Positions 1-18,196 of a DNA stretch of 21,710 nt are shown in pieces. The position numbers and the translations under genes were made by a program. This DNA comes from Thermococcaceae archaeon (lineage in GTDB: Archaea > Methanobacteriota_B > Thermococci > Thermococcales > Thermococcaceae), in NCBI GenBank assembly GCA_027064745.1, contig JAMOPD010000023.1, positions 1 to 21,710 on the forward strand, in the 5' to 3' direction. The notes under the pieces were generated by a model. The model had not been told where the DNA came from, did no database searches, and saw only the letters and a program-made list of their open reading frames with translations. How positions within the stretch are numbered: position 1 is the first letter of the stretch; each line of letters starts with the position of its first letter.

Positions 1-904
1 GATGTGTAGCCGCCTGAATTGCCGTAATCATAGGTGTAAACGCCGCGTGTCATGCTCAACTGCTATGAATTCGTAATCAGCTTTTCCATTTAAGACATCA
101 TGAACAAAAGGATAAGCTAAGCCAGCAAAGTTGCTTCCACCACCGACGCATCCGATTATCACATCTGGCTCTTCAAACTCTTTCATCTCTTCCTTTGTTT
201 CGAGTCCTATAACTGTCTGGTGCATAAGCACATGATTGAGAACGCTTCCTCATCCTTTAAGACGTCCTCTATTGCTTCACTTGTCGCTATACCAAGACCA
301 CCGGGATGATTAGGATCATCACTGAGGAACTTTCTTCCTATTTCGGTCCTGTCGCTTGGACTTGGATAAATTTCAGCACCATGGAGGCGCATTATGGTCT
401 TCCTGTAAGGTTTCTGCTGATAGCTAGCACGCGCCATATAGACCCTGACTTTCAGTCTGAGGAGCGCTCCTGCTAAACTTAAAGCGGTTCTCCATTGACC
501 TGCTCCTGTTTCAGTTACGAGCCTTTCGATCCCCTGCTCCTTCGCGTAGTAGGCCTGGGCTAATACAGTATTTATCTTGTGACTTCCCGTTACTGTTGCA
601 CCTTCGTACTTAAAGTAAATTCTCGCTGGCGTTTTCAGGGCTTTTCAAGGTTTATAGCTCTGAAAAGAGGTGTCGGACGTCCTATTTTAGCATAGAGCTC
701 ACGAACTTTCTTTGGAATACCAACATATTGTTCCATGCTCATTTCCTGCTTTATAAGTTCTGTCGCAAAGATGCGGAGCAGTTTTTCGGGCTTCATTGGT
801 TTGTCTGTTTCTGGATCCAGTGGTGGAGCCAAAGGCTCTGGCAGATCAGGTAGAATGTTATACCACCTTCTTGGTATTTTTTCATCTGTTAGAACAGCCT
901 TCAT
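1..904 (-). pseudogene. trpB2: trpB2-type tryptophan synthase beta chain, frameshifted and cut by the window edge
   Basis: TrpB converts indole and serine to tryptophan with PLP. The conceptual product starts MKAVLTDEKIPRRWYN behind a good Shine-Dalgarno site (GGAGGTGG, about 909-916) and keeps TrpB2 landmarks: the PLP-lysine segment GSHKIN, an ETGAGQW loop, [13 protein letters not shown] and [13 protein letters not shown]. The reading frame changes three times. Near 640/641 one G seems lost (expected [10 protein letters not shown]). Near 243/244 about 19 bases seem lost between KDEEA and VLNHVLMHQ. Near 53/54 about 17 bases seem lost between FIAVE and [10 protein letters not shown]. The loop normally reading GQWG reads GQWR. 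Missing lengths are inferred from remembered family sequences. A decayed gene is likeliest; the alternative is poor local sequence quality. The 3' part lies outside the window. Confidence 0.85.
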
Positions 905-12943: not shown

Positions 12944-13029
12944 GATACTGTCAGGATAAGTTAGAGAGCCCGCTTAATGGTTATACTGAATTTATTATCC
13001 GGCGCTCCCACCGGTTACCCTGACACTAT
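12944..13029. mobile_element. MITE-like element of about 85 bp upstream of psmB
   Basis: Inverted ends ATACTGTCAGGATAA (12945-12959) and TTACCCTGACACTAT (13015-13029) pair at 13 of 15 positions. The element is flanked by a direct repeat GATTCATTA (12935-12943 and 13030-13038), as a 9-bp target-site duplication would be; one extra base lies between the left copy and the inverted end. The inside has no coding frame. This structure fits a small non-autonomous transposable element. No transposase is in the window and I cannot check for other copies. Confidence 0.55.
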
Positions 13030-13042
13030 GATTCATTAATGC

Positions 13043-13058
13043 GAAAACTTTAAATACT
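13043..13058 (+). promoter_or_regulatory. psmB promoter (BRE/TATA)
   Basis: GAAAACTTTAAATACTA holds TATA box TTTAAATA at 13049-13056, with a predicted start near 13080. It begins only a few bases after the right flank of the MITE-like element. Confidence 0.6.
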
Positions 13059-13124
13059 ATCCAGCCAAACGGCCTTTTGTAGGTTCTTCTATTCTGAAAA
13101 TACTAAACGCAAGGGGTGTTGTAA

Positions 13125-13742
13125 TTGGCAGATAAGCTAAAGGGAACAACTACAGTTGGCATTGCATGTAGTGATGGGATAGTCCTTGCAGCGGACAGGA
13201 GAGCCTCAATCAGCAACATGGTAATGTCAAAAAATGTTACAAAGATATTCAAAATTGATGAACATTCTGCTCTAGCTGGAGCTGGTAATGTTGGCGACAT
13301 TTTGGGTCTTGTTAGAGTTCTTCGTTCTGAAAGTAGCTTATATAAAGCCCGAGTAGGAAAGAAAATGAGTGTTAAAGCTTTAGCGACGTTAACCTCGAAC
13401 ATCCTACATAGGAATAGACTTATGCCGTATCTTGGATGGTTTCTGATTGGGGGATTTGATGGAGAGGGGAGACTCTATTCCATTGACATGGCGGGAGGCC
13501 TGACAGATGATAAGTTTGCTGCTGCAGGCTCCGGTATGGAATTTGCATATGCTGTTCTAGAGAGTGAATATAAGAAAGATATAAAGGTTAAAGAGGCCAT
13601 CAAGCTGGCCGTTAAAGCGATAAATATTGCTATGAGGAGAGATATTTTTACAGGAGATGGCATAATGGTTGTGAAAATTACAAAAGATGGCTACAAAGAG
13701 CTTGGTAAGGATGAAATAGAGGCTATTCTTAAAGAACTATGA
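13125..13742 (+). CDS. psmB: 20S proteasome beta subunit
   Basis: Beta subunits form the proteolytic inner rings of the 20S proteasome. The precursor MADKLKG is followed by TTTVG: autocleavage after G7 exposes Thr1. Counting from it, D17 (AADRR) and K33 (NVTKIF) are in place, as is the GSG turn near position 129. In the last catalytic-site loop the usual S169 is a threonine ([10 protein letters not shown]). The length (205 residues) is normal. The start is a TTG at 13125 with GGGGTG six bases upstream; no ATG fits. Thermococcales usually have two beta genes, and this one differs from the sequences I remember for both Pyrococcus paralogues, so I do not number it. The gene lies 16 bases before aCPSF1, a linkage seen in other Thermococcales. 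Confidence 0.92.
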
Positions 13743-13758
13743 GGCAGAGGTGAGAGAT

Positions 13759-15705
13759 GTGATAAAAAGGGAAACATTTGTCGATGATATTCTCAAGGAG
13801 ATCAAGGAGATAATAGACCAGATGGTCCCGCGTGAAGCAAAGATATCAGATGTTGAATTTGAAGGGCCTGAGTTGGTGATTTATGTTAAAAATCCTGAGG
13901 TTATAATGCAGGATGGAGATTTAATAAAGAACCTTGCAAAGATCCTTAAAAAACGCATAAGCGTAAGGCCTGATCCTGAGGTTCTTCTGCCGCCTGAAAG
14001 AGCAGAGGAGATGATCAAGCAACTTGTTCCTGCTGACGCTGAGATAACCAGTATAAGCTTTGATCCTTCTGTAGGGGAGGTTCTAATTGAGGCTAAAAAG
14101 CCTGGGCTGGTTATTGGTAAAAATGGTGAAACATTAAGACTGATTACCCAGAAAGTCCGCTGGGCACCGAAGGTTATAAGAACTCCTCCCATTCAATCCC
14201 AGACCATCTACTCTGTCAGACAGATACTCCAGACAGAGAGCAGGGACAGGAGAAAATTCCTAAGGCAGGTCGGCAGAAACATCTACAGAAAACCTGAGCT
14301 CAAAAGCGAATGGATAAGAATCACTGGCCTGGGTGGATTCAGAGAGGTTGGCAGATCAGCCCTCCTACTCCAGACAAATGAGAGTTTTGTTCTGGTTGAT
14401 TTCGGAGTTAATGTTGCTACATTGAATGATCCCAAAAAGGCATTTCCTCATTTTGAAGCACCCGAATTTAGGTATGTTCTCAATGAGGGTCTTCTCGATG
14501 CGATAATAATAACCCATGCTCATCTTGACCATAGTGGTTTATTGCCATATCTCTTCAGGTTCAACCTGTTTGACGGCCCGATATATGCCACGCCTCCAAC
14601 GAGAGACCTGATGGTGCTCCTTCAGAAGGATTTCATTGAAATTCAACAGAGCAACGGTATAGATCCACTTTACAGACCAAGAGACATCAAAGAAGTAATA
14701 AAACACACAATAACCCTTGACTATGGGGAGGTTAGGGATATAGCTCCTGATCTGAGGCTCACGCTCCATAATGCAGGACATATCCTCGGCTCATCCATTG
14801 CCCACCTGCACGTGGGAAACGGCCTTCACAATGTAGCAGTCACTGGGGACTTCAAGTTTATTCCCACGAGGCTGTTTGAGCCTGCGGCAAGTAGATTCCC
14901 TCGGCTAGAGACTCTTGTTATGGAATCCACATACGGGGCAAGTAATGATTATCAGATGCCGAGGGACGAGGCTGAGAAGAAGCTTATTGAAGTGATTCAT
15001 CAGACTATAAAACGTAAAGGAAAAGTCCTAATTCCCGCAATGGCAGTCGGTAGAGCACAGGAGATAATGATGGTTCTTGAGGAATACGCACGCGTGGGTG
15101 GAATAGAGGTACCAATATACCTAGATGGAATGATATGGGAGGCAACTGCCATACACACGGCTTATCCTGAGTACCTCAGCAGGCATCTTAGGGATCAGAT
15201 ATTCCATGAAGGCTACAATCCATTCCTAAATCCAGTATTCCACAGTGTTGCCAACAGTAAGGAGAGGCAGGATATAATTGACAGCGGTGAGCCTGCAATA
15301 ATCATAGCAACATCAGGCATGCTCGTAGGTGGGCCAAGTGTAGAGTACTTTAAACAGCTTGCACCCGATCCAAGAAACAGTATAATCTTTGTTAGTTATC
15401 AGGCAGAAGGAACCCTCGGCAGGCAGATCCAGAGGGGGTTGAAGGAGATTCCCCTCATAGGTGAAGGTGGGAAGACAGAAGCCATAAGGATCAACATGGA
15501 GGTCCATACAATTGATGGATTCTCCGGTCATGCTGACAGAAGAGAACTTATAAGTTATATCGCAAGGGTGAGGCCAAGGCCGGAGAGGGTTATAACGGTC
15601 CACGGTGAGCCCCAGAAATGCCTTGACCTAGCGAGTAGCATACACAAGAAATTTGGAATCTCAACGAGAGCTCCAAATAATCTTGATGCAATCCGGCTCA
15701 AGTGA
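13759..15705 (+). CDS. fttA: aCPSF1/FttA: KH-domain metallo-beta-lactamase/beta-CASP ribonuclease, transcription termination factor
   Basis: This archaeal relative of CPSF73 cuts nascent RNA and drives transcription termination. The N-terminal KH region (about 1-145) includes VIGKNGETLRLI with GKNG at about 120-123. The metallo-beta-lactamase motif THAHLDHSG gives zinc ligands H253, H255, D257 and H258. Further ligands and beta-CASP motifs include HNAGHILGSS, VTGDFK, VMESTYG, the SGHADRREL histidine (H591) and VHGEP (H615). I chose GTG 13759 (648 residues, MIKRETFVDDI) because GAGGTGA lies five bases upstream; an earlier GTG at 13750 lies inside that site. Cotranscription with psmB and the threonine-synthase-like gene is likely (gaps of 16 and 6 bases). 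Confidence 0.95.
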   Translation: MIKRETFVDDILKEIKEIIDQMVPREAKISDVEFEGPELVIYVKNPEVIMQDGDLIKNLAKILKKRISVRPDPEVLLPPERAEEMIKQLVPADAEITSISFDPSVGEVLIEAKKPGLVIGKNGETLRLITQKVRWAPKVIRTPPIQSQTIYSVRQILQTESRDRRKFLRQVGRNIYRKPELKSEWIRITGLGGFREVGRSALLLQTNESFVLVDFGVNVATLNDPKKAFPHFEAPEFRYVLNEGLLDAIIITHAHLDHSGLLPYLFRFNLFDGPIYATPPTRDLMVLLQKDFIEIQQSNGIDPLYRPRDIKEVIKHTITLDYGEVRDIAPDLRLTLHNAGHILGSSIAHLHVGNGLHNVAVTGDFKFIPTRLFEPAASRFPRLETLVMESTYGASNDYQMPRDEAEKKLIEVIHQTIKRKGKVLIPAMAVGRAQEIMMVLEEYARVGGIEVPIYLDGMIWEATAIHTAYPEYLSRHLRDQIFHEGYNPFLNPVFHSVANSKERQDIIDSGEPAIIIATSGMLVGGPSVEYFKQLAPDPRNSIIFVSYQAEGTLGRQIQRGLKEIPLIGEGGKTEAIRINMEVHTIDGFSGHADRRELISYIARVRPRPERVITVHGEPQKCLDLASSIHKKFGISTRAPNNLDAIRLK

Positions 15706-15711
15706 TGGAAT

Positions 15712-17040
15712 ATGAGGGTTGTGTGTCCTTCATGTGGTCGTTCCTATTCATCATTTGTCCCTCCCAGATGTTCCTGCGGAGCGGAGCTTGAGATTAGCTA
15801 TGACTATTCACATGTAGATGTCTCCAACTGGAGAAGGAGAGACAAAGGAGTTTGGAGATACAGGGAGCTTCTTCCTGATGTTAAGAAGATAATCACGCTG
15901 AAAGAAGGAGGAACTCCACTATTTAAAGCCAAGCTGGGTGAAGAGCTTGGTCTGAAGGTTTTCATCAAGGATGAAACAAGGAATCCCACTGGCTCTTTCA
16001 GGGATAGGTTAACCACAGTTGCAGTTTCCTATGGTTTTCCTTATGCAGAAAACGGGTTTGCTGTTGCGAGTAATGGAAACTCAGCCGCATCTCTGTCGGC
16101 ATATGCTGCAAGAGCTGGAAAGGAGGCTTTTGTTGTCGTGCCCCGGAAGATTGACAGGGGCAAATTAATCCAGATGATAGCCTTTGGTGCGAGGATAATA
16201 CGCTATGGGGACAGCGTTGATGAGGGTATTGAATACGTCAGAGAGCTTGCCAAACTTAATGGCTTCTATGATATAACCCCTGAAAATAACATAATCGGGC
16301 TTGAGGGACAGAAGACAATTGCCTTTGAGCTCTGGGAGGAGTTAAACCCTACTCACATAATCGTGCCAACAGGAAGTGGAAGCAACATTTACAGCATATA
16401 TAGGGGATTCAAACAGCTCCTTGAAATAGGAGCCATTGAAAAAATGCCCCAGTTGATAGCAGTTCAGCCGGAAAAATGCTCTCCGATAGCCAGTGAAATC
16501 CTTGGAATAAAGGCGAGAAAGGAACTTACCAAAGCACTTGGATTATATGTTAAAGATCCAGTAAGCAAAGAAAAGGCTATTAAAGCCGTTAAAGAAACAG
16601 AAGGAACTGCAGTTCTTGTGGGGGAGGATGAGCTGGATTTTGGAGAACGGGTTTTGGTTAATGAAGGGGTCTTTGCTGAATACTCCTCCGCTGTTGTAGT
16701 TCCAGCTCTGTTTAAGCTGAGTGAAGAGGGTTATTTTGAAAAAGACGATCGGATAGCTCTGATAGTAACCAGCTCAGGGCTCAAGGCATACTACAGGGAG
16801 GAGAGGTTCTCCATAGGGGGTACAAAGCTTGAAATTCTAAAACTTCTCAAGGATGGTGAGAAGTATGGCTATGAAATCTGGGAGAATCTTGAAAAGCCGA
16901 TGAATTATCAGGCAGTTTATCAGCATATAAAAGAGCTTGAGAGCCTTGGTTTGATTGAGAAATCTCAGAAAAGGGGAAAACGACTCTATTATAGACTAAC
17001 AGAGAAAGGAGAGAGGGTACTTGAAAACTTTTTAGAATAG
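15712..17040 (+). CDS. threonine synthase-like protein with Lys-to-Arg active site and C-terminal PadR-like winged helix
   Basis: The N terminus is a zinc ribbon (C5, C8, C20, C22) as in archaeal threonine synthases. The fold type II PLP domain follows (about 60-360), with SNGNSAASLSAYAARAG, PTGSGSNIYS as phosphate loop and VTSSGLK. The PLP-lysine motif, normally NPTGSFKDR, reads NPTGSFRDR: residue 97 is arginine (codon AGG, 16000-16002), so no Schiff base of the normal kind can form there. The last 75 residues (GTKLEILKLLKDGEKYGYEI to LTEKGERVLENF) look like a PadR-type DNA-binding winged helix. A transcription regulator sensing a PLP-like or amino acid ligand is my inference; a real threonine synthase is unlikely unless the codon is a sequence error. 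ATG 15712 lies six bases after the fttA stop. Confidence 0.85.
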   Translation: MRVVCPSCGRSYSSFVPPRCSCGAELEISYDYSHVDVSNWRRRDKGVWRYRELLPDVKKIITLKEGGTPLFKAKLGEELGLKVFIKDETRNPTGSFRDRLTTVAVSYGFPYAENGFAVASNGNSAASLSAYAARAGKEAFVVVPRKIDRGKLIQMIAFGARIIRYGDSVDEGIEYVRELAKLNGFYDITPENNIIGLEGQKTIAFELWEELNPTHIIVPTGSGSNIYSIYRGFKQLLEIGAIEKMPQLIAVQPEKCSPIASEILGIKARKELTKALGLYVKDPVSKEKAIKAVKETEGTAVLVGEDELDFGERVLVNEGVFAEYSSAVVVPALFKLSEEGYFEKDDRIALIVTSSGLKAYYREERFSIGGTKLEILKLLKDGEKYGYEIWENLEKPMNYQAVYQHIKELESLGLIEKSQKRGKRLYYRLTEKGERVLENFLE

Positions 17041-17169: not shown

Positions 17170-17508
17170 GTGAAGCCTGAGAACAAGTTTTCGCTCATAG
17201 TCTATGGCTGGGGTGCGCTCAGTGGAGTCGTCAGTGGGGTATTATCTATTGAGAATCAGGCGGGATGGATAGTTGGATTTATGCTTCTCTTCGTGATACC
17301 TTATGTGGCAAAAGCACTTCTAAAAGACCTGCCTGAAGAACTTCAAGATCCGAGAACAGCTATCAGGCAGTCCCTTGGAGGATTCCTCCTGTTCTGGTTG
17401 TACTTCACGTTGCTTGTTTATACTGTCTCTACAGGATTCCAGCCAAAGTTTTATTCCAATCAGAGCTTGCTGTATAAGATAATCCACAATTCAACTGTAA
17501 CGGGGTGA
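17170..17508 (+). CDS. EMC6-like archaeal membrane protein
   Basis: The 112-residue product has three hydrophobic segments at about 8-27, 30-51 and 71-91, and a conserved-looking cytosolic loop LLKDLPEELQDPRTAIRQS. Length and layout fit the small archaeal family related to EMC6, a subunit of the eukaryotic ER membrane protein insertase complex; this is from memory and moderate. The role here is unknown. GTG 17170 is six bases after AGGTGA. Four bases separate its stop from the rpiA start, so the two genes are probably cotranscribed. Confidence 0.7.
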   Translation: MKPENKFSLIVYGWGALSGVVSGVLSIENQAGWIVGFMLLFVIPYVAKALLKDLPEELQDPRTAIRQSLGGFLLFWLYFTLLVYTVSTGFQPKFYSNQSLLYKIIHNSTVTG

Positions 17509-17512
17509 GCTA

Positions 17513-18196
17513 ATGGAAGGGTTGAAAAAAATTGTTGCTAAAGAGGCCTTAAAGTTCATTGATGATGATATGGTAGTGGGATTAGGTACAGGTTCAACTA
17601 CCGCTTATTTCATTAAGTATCTTGGCAAGCTTATAATGGAGGATGAGCTGGAGGATGTCTATGGTGTTCCAACTTCATATCAGGCTAGGCTCCTTGCTCT
17701 GGAAAGTGGAGTACCAGTTGTTGGTCTCGACGAGGTCGATGCCATAGATGTTGCGGTTGATGGTGCTGATGAAGTCGATCCTCACCTGAATCTGATAAAG
17801 GGCCGTGGTGCTGCGCTCACAATGGAGAAGATTATAGAATACAGGGCTGGAACGTTTGTAGTGTTGGTGGATGAGAGTAAGCTTGTTGATTATTTAGGTC
17901 AGAAAATGCCAGTTCCGATAGAGGTTATCCCTGCTGTGTGGAGGGCCATTAAAGAGGAGCTGGAAGTTTTTAACGCTACAGCAGAACTGAGGATGGCGGC
18001 TAAGAAGGATGGCCCAGTTGTAACGGATAATGGGAACTTCATATTGGATGCGCACTTTCCTAAGATAGATGATCCTCTCGACTTAGAGATTGAGCTTAAC
18101 AACATTCCTGGCGTTGTAGAAAACGGTATTTTCGCAGATATCGCTGATATCGTCCTCGTAGGCACAAAGGAAGGCGTTAAAAAGCTTGAGCGTTAA
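17513..18196 (+). CDS. rpiA: ribose-5-phosphate isomerase A
   Basis: RpiA interconverts ribose 5-phosphate and ribulose 5-phosphate. In Thermococcales, which lack a full oxidative pentose phosphate pathway, it supplies ribose for nucleotides together with the ribulose monophosphate route. The 227-residue product shows the phosphate-binding loop VGLGTGSTTAYF (about 22-33), the catalytic DGADEVDP segment, and KGRGAALTMEK with the catalytic glutamate and lysine. The C-terminal part has GVVENGIFADIADIVLVGT. ATG 17513 follows GGGGTGA, which overlaps the stop of the preceding gene. Family assignment is firm. Confidence 0.96.
   Translation: MEGLKKIVAKEALKFIDDDMVVGLGTGSTTAYFIKYLGKLIMEDELEDVYGVPTSYQARLLALESGVPVVGLDEVDAIDVAVDGADEVDPHLNLIKGRGAALTMEKIIEYRAGTFVVLVDESKLVDYLGQKMPVPIEVIPAVWRAIKEELEVFNATAELRMAAKKDGPVVTDNGNFILDAHFPKIDDPLDLEIELNNIPGVVENGIFADIADIVLVGTKEGVKKLER

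Follow-up and report, generated by a model that had tools for sequence, protein, structure and literature searches.

What is the function of a protein that is built like threonine synthase (ThrC), carries an arginine at the position of the catalytic lysine, and ends in a DNA-binding domain? This question is raised by an open reading frame (ORF) at positions 15712-17040, forward strand, of a 21,710-nucleotide stretch of DNA from a Thermococcaceae archaeon (assembly GCA_027064745.1, contig JAMOPD010000023.1; hereafter the window). The ORF is open, starts with ATG and encodes 442 amino acids; its product is called X below. We believe that X, although related to threonine synthase, is not a catalyst but a ligand-responsive, DNA-binding regulator, and from sequence comparison we put the probability of this reading at roughly 0.7. 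The features on which the argument turns are listed here; unless stated otherwise, rows are those of a 222-row alignment built from a homologue search with X and a second search with a distant member, each contributing its best 120 of thousands of matches, beyond which other variants may exist.

15712..17040, + strand: X, a PALP fold-type-II domain followed by a PadR-like winged helix (ORF, Pfam, NCBIfam)
15724..15777, + strand: N-terminal CxxC ... CxC cysteines C5, C8, C20 and C22, zinc-ribbon-like (alignment A1)
15892..16770, + strand: PALP domain, residues 61-353 (Pfam, AlphaFold2 model, structural matches)
16000..16002, + strand: Arg97 (AGG), aligned with Lys61 of Thermus thermophilus ThrC
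16078..16080, + strand: Asn123, equivalent to T. thermophilus Asn87; Asn in 221/221 lettered rows
16372..16386, + strand: GSGSN glycine loop, residues 221-225 (GNAGN in ThrC); G221 and G223 in 222/222 rows
16768..16770, + strand: Thr353, equivalent to T. thermophilus Thr317; Thr in 219/221 lettered rows
16780..16818, + strand: linker between PALP domain and winged helix, residues 357-369, low confidence (predicted local distance difference test, pLDDT, < 50)
16834..17025, + strand: PadR-like winged helix-turn-helix (wHTH), residues 375-438 (Pfam; stand-alone PadR-type homologue in the same genome)
16906..16944, + strand: predicted recognition helix, residues 399-411, including AVYQHIKEL (helix in the model; Gln404 and His405 conserved)

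First, the two halves of X are well defined. The PALP match (221.7 bits, cut-off 35) and the predicted fold, with a mean pLDDT of 90.1 in the AlphaFold2 model and threonine synthases as the best structural matches, place X in the fold-type-II pyridoxal 5'-phosphate (PLP) family, and the C-terminal domain exceeds the Pfam cut-off for PadR (42.4 bits, cut-off 27). The linker between them is probably flexible, judging from the model. In alignment A1 (65 rows) C20 and C22 are invariant and C5 and C8 are conserved in at least 90% of rows; ThrC paralogues have a similar motif, and these cysteines may bind zinc. The initial annotation of this DNA had read an arginine codon, AGG, at residue 97 of an otherwise normal NPTGSFxDR motif and a DNA-binding domain at the end of the protein, and both are present, as NPTGSFRDR with AGG at 16000-16002 and as the winged helix at residues 375-438. 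The gene is under purifying selection, as indicated by a dN of 0.066 against a dS of 1.32 (dN/dS about 0.05; YN00, window paired with locus L015), which rules out that X of the window is a pseudogene.

Second, Arg97 is a family trait. Across the 222 rows this column holds Arg in 216, Lys in three (P0018, P0026 and P0174), Met and Ser in one each, and a gap in one fragment, and among the first 120 homologues listed the motif carries Arg in 114, Lys in two and Met in one, with three falling outside the pattern. The few rows that carry a name are listed by their sources as, among others, Thermococcus, Pyrococcus, Palaeococcus, Euryarchaeota and Methanomicrobia metagenome-assembled genomes, and also as Bathyarchaeota, Odinarchaeota, Jordarchaeales, Freyarchaeota and Asgardarchaeia. 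The nearest relatives of X (P0002-P0005, 88-90% identical) have Arg, whereas all 22 fetched paralogues have Lys. At the DNA level, the motif was found in 52 of 58 scanned loci (some genomes being represented twice, and six loci not fitting the pattern), with 51 Arg codons (AGG 22, AGA 21, CGC 3, CGA 2, CGT 2, CGG 1) and one Lys codon (AAA). The use of all six Arg codons indicates that the amino acid is held rather than one codon; to reach Lys from a CGN codon takes two steps or more. A sequencing error as the source of Arg97 is rejected by its presence throughout homologues, rows and loci. The initial annotation had regarded lysine in close orthologues as fatal to its reading; lysine does occur, in 3 of 221 lettered rows, but these are nested within the arginine clade. 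The Palaeococcus X at L063 6735-8066, which is nested in this way and has a Lys encoded by AAA where the Schiff base would form, offers a natural test of whether the PLP linkage can return.

Third, loss of the lysine and gain of the winged helix appear to go together. In a tree of 69 rows (47 X and 22 Lys paralogues), calculated without column 97 and the wHTH, a branch with support of 100/99 separates all the sampled X rows from the Lys rows. Five changes at column 97 are counted on this tree. One separates the two groups, and the other four fall within X: to Lys in P0018 (Palaeococcus pacificus) and its sister P0026, to Lys in P0174, to Met in P0104 and to Ser in P0157. Lysine at the Schiff-base position is the rule in PLP enzymes, and for this reason, not because of the number of changes, we take it as the older state. 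The PadR domain exceeds its cut-off in all eight divergent X members chosen for scanning, including the Lys, Met and Ser variants, while the Lys paralogues that were read end without it. These observations suggest that, as far as sampled, fusion and lysine loss coincide at the base of the clade, with rare later departures.

Could X nevertheless be an enzyme? X might still work as a threonine synthase, or as a PLP lyase or synthase of another kind, by tolerating the arginine or using a different lysine; the winged helix would then do no more than control its activity or location. The NCBIfam model NF004170 (PRK05638), named threonine synthase, matches X at 751.6 bits against a curated cut-off of 421, the top fold matches are threonine synthases, and two lysines of X are strongly conserved (K151 in 222/222 rows, K201 in 221/222). 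However, both positions are also invariant in 11 real ThrC proteins, each adjoining thrB, so that they are not substitutes for the missing lysine. Comparison of X residues 40-359 with these 11 proteins and T. thermophilus ThrC separates two sets of ThrC-invariant positions, 50 that are kept in more than 95% of X rows and 28 that are kept in less than 5%. In T. thermophilus numbering, the kept set includes N87, G187, T317, K116, Q119, E287, S290, G320 and K322, and we take N87 (contact to PLP O3'), the 187-191 loop (cofactor phosphate) and T317 (pyridine nitrogen) to hold PLP. The changed set includes K61, presumably the PLP-carrying lysine, and G64, T85, T88, N154, S155, R160, N188, H319 and D323, of which R160, S155, N154 and N188 presumably serve the substrate in ThrC; at the S155 position 209 of 222 rows have Glu. 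X thus lacks the Schiff-base lysine as well as the substrate-side invariants T85, T88, N154, S155, R160, N188 and H319. The kept pocket positions suggest that X may bind PLP, and overall it looks as if the cofactor site was retained and the reaction abandoned.

The distribution of X points the same way. The initial annotation had called for a second, intact thrC, and the genome does carry a Lys-bearing ThrC (C102:11709-12797) adjoining thrB (C102:12830-13675), as well as a third, more distant PALP protein that also has Lys. X is present in 52 of 75 Thermococcaceae genomes with a completeness of 90% or more; 30 of these 52 lack thrB over the TIGR00191 cut-off and 22 have it, compared with 18 and 5 of the 23 genomes without X (G098 being scored as X-positive despite a split gene). 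X and thrB show no significant association (Fisher P 0.12), so that threonine synthesis as the sole target of X is not supported either. X is kept in genomes that apparently lack homoserine kinase and so would not make the substrate, which is unlike what is expected of an enzyme of threonine synthesis. Taken together, catalysis by X seems improbable, and we think that the name threonine synthase for the NF004170 family is wrong. Vitamin B6 synthesis is likewise not supported as a target; pdxS has no match in 10 of the 52 X-positive genomes and exceeds the cut-off in 21 of the 23 X-negative ones (hand count).

The preferred reading, a non-catalytic regulator, is in line with the proposal of the initial annotation that an enzyme had turned into a ligand-sensing, MocR-like regulator, which fits the clade-wide loss of the lysine, the loss of ThrC-invariant positions beside a kept cofactor pocket, the PadR domain in 8/8 scanned members and the separate Lys-bearing ThrC. 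The starting point of the proposed mechanism, a pocket scaffold kept without its Schiff-base lysine, is apparent from the alignments. Without an internal aldimine, a PLP-amino-acid adduct or pyridoxamine 5'-phosphate would stay bound, there being no lysine to displace the adduct, and Arg97, sitting at the lysine site, would touch it. Ligand binding could then close the small domain and re-set the two winged helices of a dimer, and operator binding would change as a result. The ligand step of this model is drawn by analogy. The structural matches include 1d6s, titled as a K41A O-acetylserine sulfhydrylase with methionine, which gives a precedent for a lysine-less fold-II pocket that holds a PLP-amino-acid aldimine. 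More tentatively, the X family may consist of ancient archaeal transcription factors whose fold-type-II pocket, permanently free of lysine, detects an amino acid in the form of its PLP adduct. On this view they are a counterpart of MocR that originated once, from threonine synthase, when Lys was replaced by Arg; they would now occur across Thermococci, Bathyarchaeota and Asgard archaea, concealed by the name threonine synthase.

The main rival to this model keeps X as a DNA-binding regulator and replaces the effector. The arginine pocket could bind another anionic metabolite, or the dimer interface could bind S-adenosylmethionine, as it does in plant threonine synthase; polyamine or methionine metabolism, for example, might be tuned in this way. 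S-adenosylmethionine is the leading candidate among these effectors. In two Palaeococcus-type genomes X lies in a polyamine cluster, between genes that we take from their sequence features to encode a spermidine synthase and a phosphoribosyltransferase, but this linkage is confined to two genomes of one genus code. Inspection by eye of the region upstream of pdaD in 16 X-positive and 6 X-negative genomes revealed no X-specific element (7 of 29 rows, in which no start was found, were dropped). Structural scores are a weak guide, other ligand-bound threonine synthases being nearly equal (1v7c 42.6, 6nmx 42.3; tied under the rule of the search program), and the PLP-pocket residues are very strictly kept. 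We consider an effector other than a PLP adduct unlikely.

What, then, does the winged helix do? Gln404 and His405 are found in 220/220 lettered rows, and the near-invariance of these recognition-helix residues predicts a DNA site that is conserved across archaea; the wHTH is predicted from its sequence to bind DNA specifically. The same genome encodes a stand-alone PadR-type regulator (L004 1285-1755, reverse strand) with 45% identity to X residues 360-437, whose gene adjoins ferredoxin-like and ABC-ATPase-like genes (assigned by eye). Our searches for an operator covered the pdaD region described above, the region upstream of psmB and a dyad scan. Upstream of psmB, 15 X-positive and 11 X-negative genomes were compared by eye and share a TATA element and leader elements whether or not X is present (the X-negative rows L104 and L105 begin too far upstream for the promoter). 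In the window (12975-13140) the conserved TATA-like and leader stretches read TTTAAATACT and TTCTTCTATTCT; other genomes have closely similar versions, again with or without X. In 348 merged upstream regions of one genome (800 kb; 10 simulated backgrounds) the top dyads were of the CGGGG-N7-CCCCG type, which are presumably tRNA T-arms, and the remaining ones were mostly AT-rich or rare. No dyad could be named in the promoter of X itself, where the initial annotation had called for a search; X starts 6 bp downstream of the stop codon of fttA.

The neighbourhood of X in the window comprises the following genes.

13750..15705, + strand: fttA, 6 bp upstream of X
17170..17508, + strand: a membrane-like protein of 112 amino acids, downstream of X
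17513..18196, + strand: rpiA, downstream of X

The name fttA follows the initial annotation, and rpiA is presumably the gene so named. Judging from the sequence, fttA probably forms one transcription unit with psmB (13125-13742). In 49 of the 52 motif-bearing loci X comes directly after fttA, at a distance of -5 to 33 bp; the exceptions are L063 (Palaeococcus) and two loci of the sister family f2. This arrangement could favour a different role, in which the winged helix has no DNA-binding function and X is a scaffold or inhibitor, for example in mixed dimers with real ThrC or in termination together with FttA. However, X lies away from fttA in the two Palaeococcus-type genomes and in four of family f2, where it adjoins what we take to be GINS- and MCM-like genes, with a presumed PHP-like gene on its other side in the three genomes that cover that side. 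Moreover, none of the 14 Thermococcaceae genomes without X that were read has lost fttA, and the examined recognition-helix residues are near-invariant. A scaffold of this kind is therefore very improbable. The suggestion that the position after fttA hints at the targets of X fails on the same six genomes and on two further grounds: 7 of the 14 X-lacking genomes retain fttA together with rpiA and the homologue of the 17170 gene but have no X between them (the other seven have other genes after fttA), and the psmB-fttA promoter is alike with or without X. Thus, fttA as a target is not supported, and with settings this varied and neighbours kept without X, the neighbourhood does not name the target.

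Elsewhere in the window, a second PALP gene (28-904, reverse strand), presumably TrpB2-like judging from its N-terminal sequence, is broken up into several fragments that occupy different reading frames (ORFs 635-904, 207-437 and 28-231; PALP matches at 333-641 and 52-219), reflecting either a broken gene or assembly frameshifts.

Several points weigh against a lysine-free regulator conserved throughout the clade. Three rows have Lys at column 97, and a Schiff base may be possible in these few members. No operator was found upstream of psmB, upstream of pdaD or in the dyad scan of one genome. The tree contains rows with long branches, for which the program issued a warning, and its Lys-type ThrC proteins include none from Bathyarchaeota or Asgard archaea. 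For two homologues, P0064 (391 amino acids) and P0065 (340 amino acids), the precomputed Pfam column lists no HTH; they may be truncated or unfused. Lys-bearing ThrC-like paralogues also occur in some genomes without thrB, such as G092 (locus L091), so that other uses of the fold exist and the argument from thrB is limited. Finally, X is missing from 23 of 75 genomes and is split into two ORFs in G098 (L075 6322-7574) and apparently in G070:C65 (L022), which indicates that it is dispensable; the split genes themselves suggest either a dispensable gene in decay or sequencing frameshifts.

Among the papers listed by searches of open-licence full text in PubMed Central (PMC), we recognised none on the X family, its fusion or its arginine. 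A study of Pyrococcus furiosus transcription factors lists a PadR family and contains neither 'threonine' nor 'pyridoxal' (PMC6316755). If our reading is correct, transcription factors with a PLP fold would have been invented a second time, independently, among the Archaea, from which MocR regulators are absent according to a comparative study (PMC5320631); in this second case the catalytic lysine would be fixed as arginine. Archaeal members of the family would then be misannotated as threonine synthase, and predictions of amino-acid prototrophy that draw on these annotations would be wrong as well. The family includes cultivated Thermococcales and is thus open to experiment.

Finally, X resembles several known systems in part. 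Like MocR, GabR and PdxR, it joins an enzyme-derived PLP fold to a winged helix and would be expected to sense a PLP-linked metabolite. MocR proteins combine a fold-type-I aminotransferase with an N-terminal GntR helix, whereas X has a fold-type-II PALP domain, a C-terminal PadR-like helix, no lysine and an archaeal host. With ThrC it shares the parent fold, the N-terminal cysteine motif and the cofactor-pocket positions, but differs in the change of Lys61 to Arg, the 28 altered positions, the added wHTH and the missing tie to thrB. PadR proteins are small; X matches them in its winged helix, which is 45% identical to that of its stand-alone relative, and differs in having a whole N-terminal PALP domain as partner. 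Lysine-less mutants of fold-II enzymes (1d6s, 3x44 and 3vc3) likewise have a pocket without the Schiff-base lysine, and the titles of 1d6s and 3x44 describe a trapped external aldimine or bound ligand; the alanine in these mutants is engineered, whereas the arginine of X is natural and conserved. We infer that X works like a MocR regulator, although it is not a MocR and, by the features testable here, not a threonine synthase.
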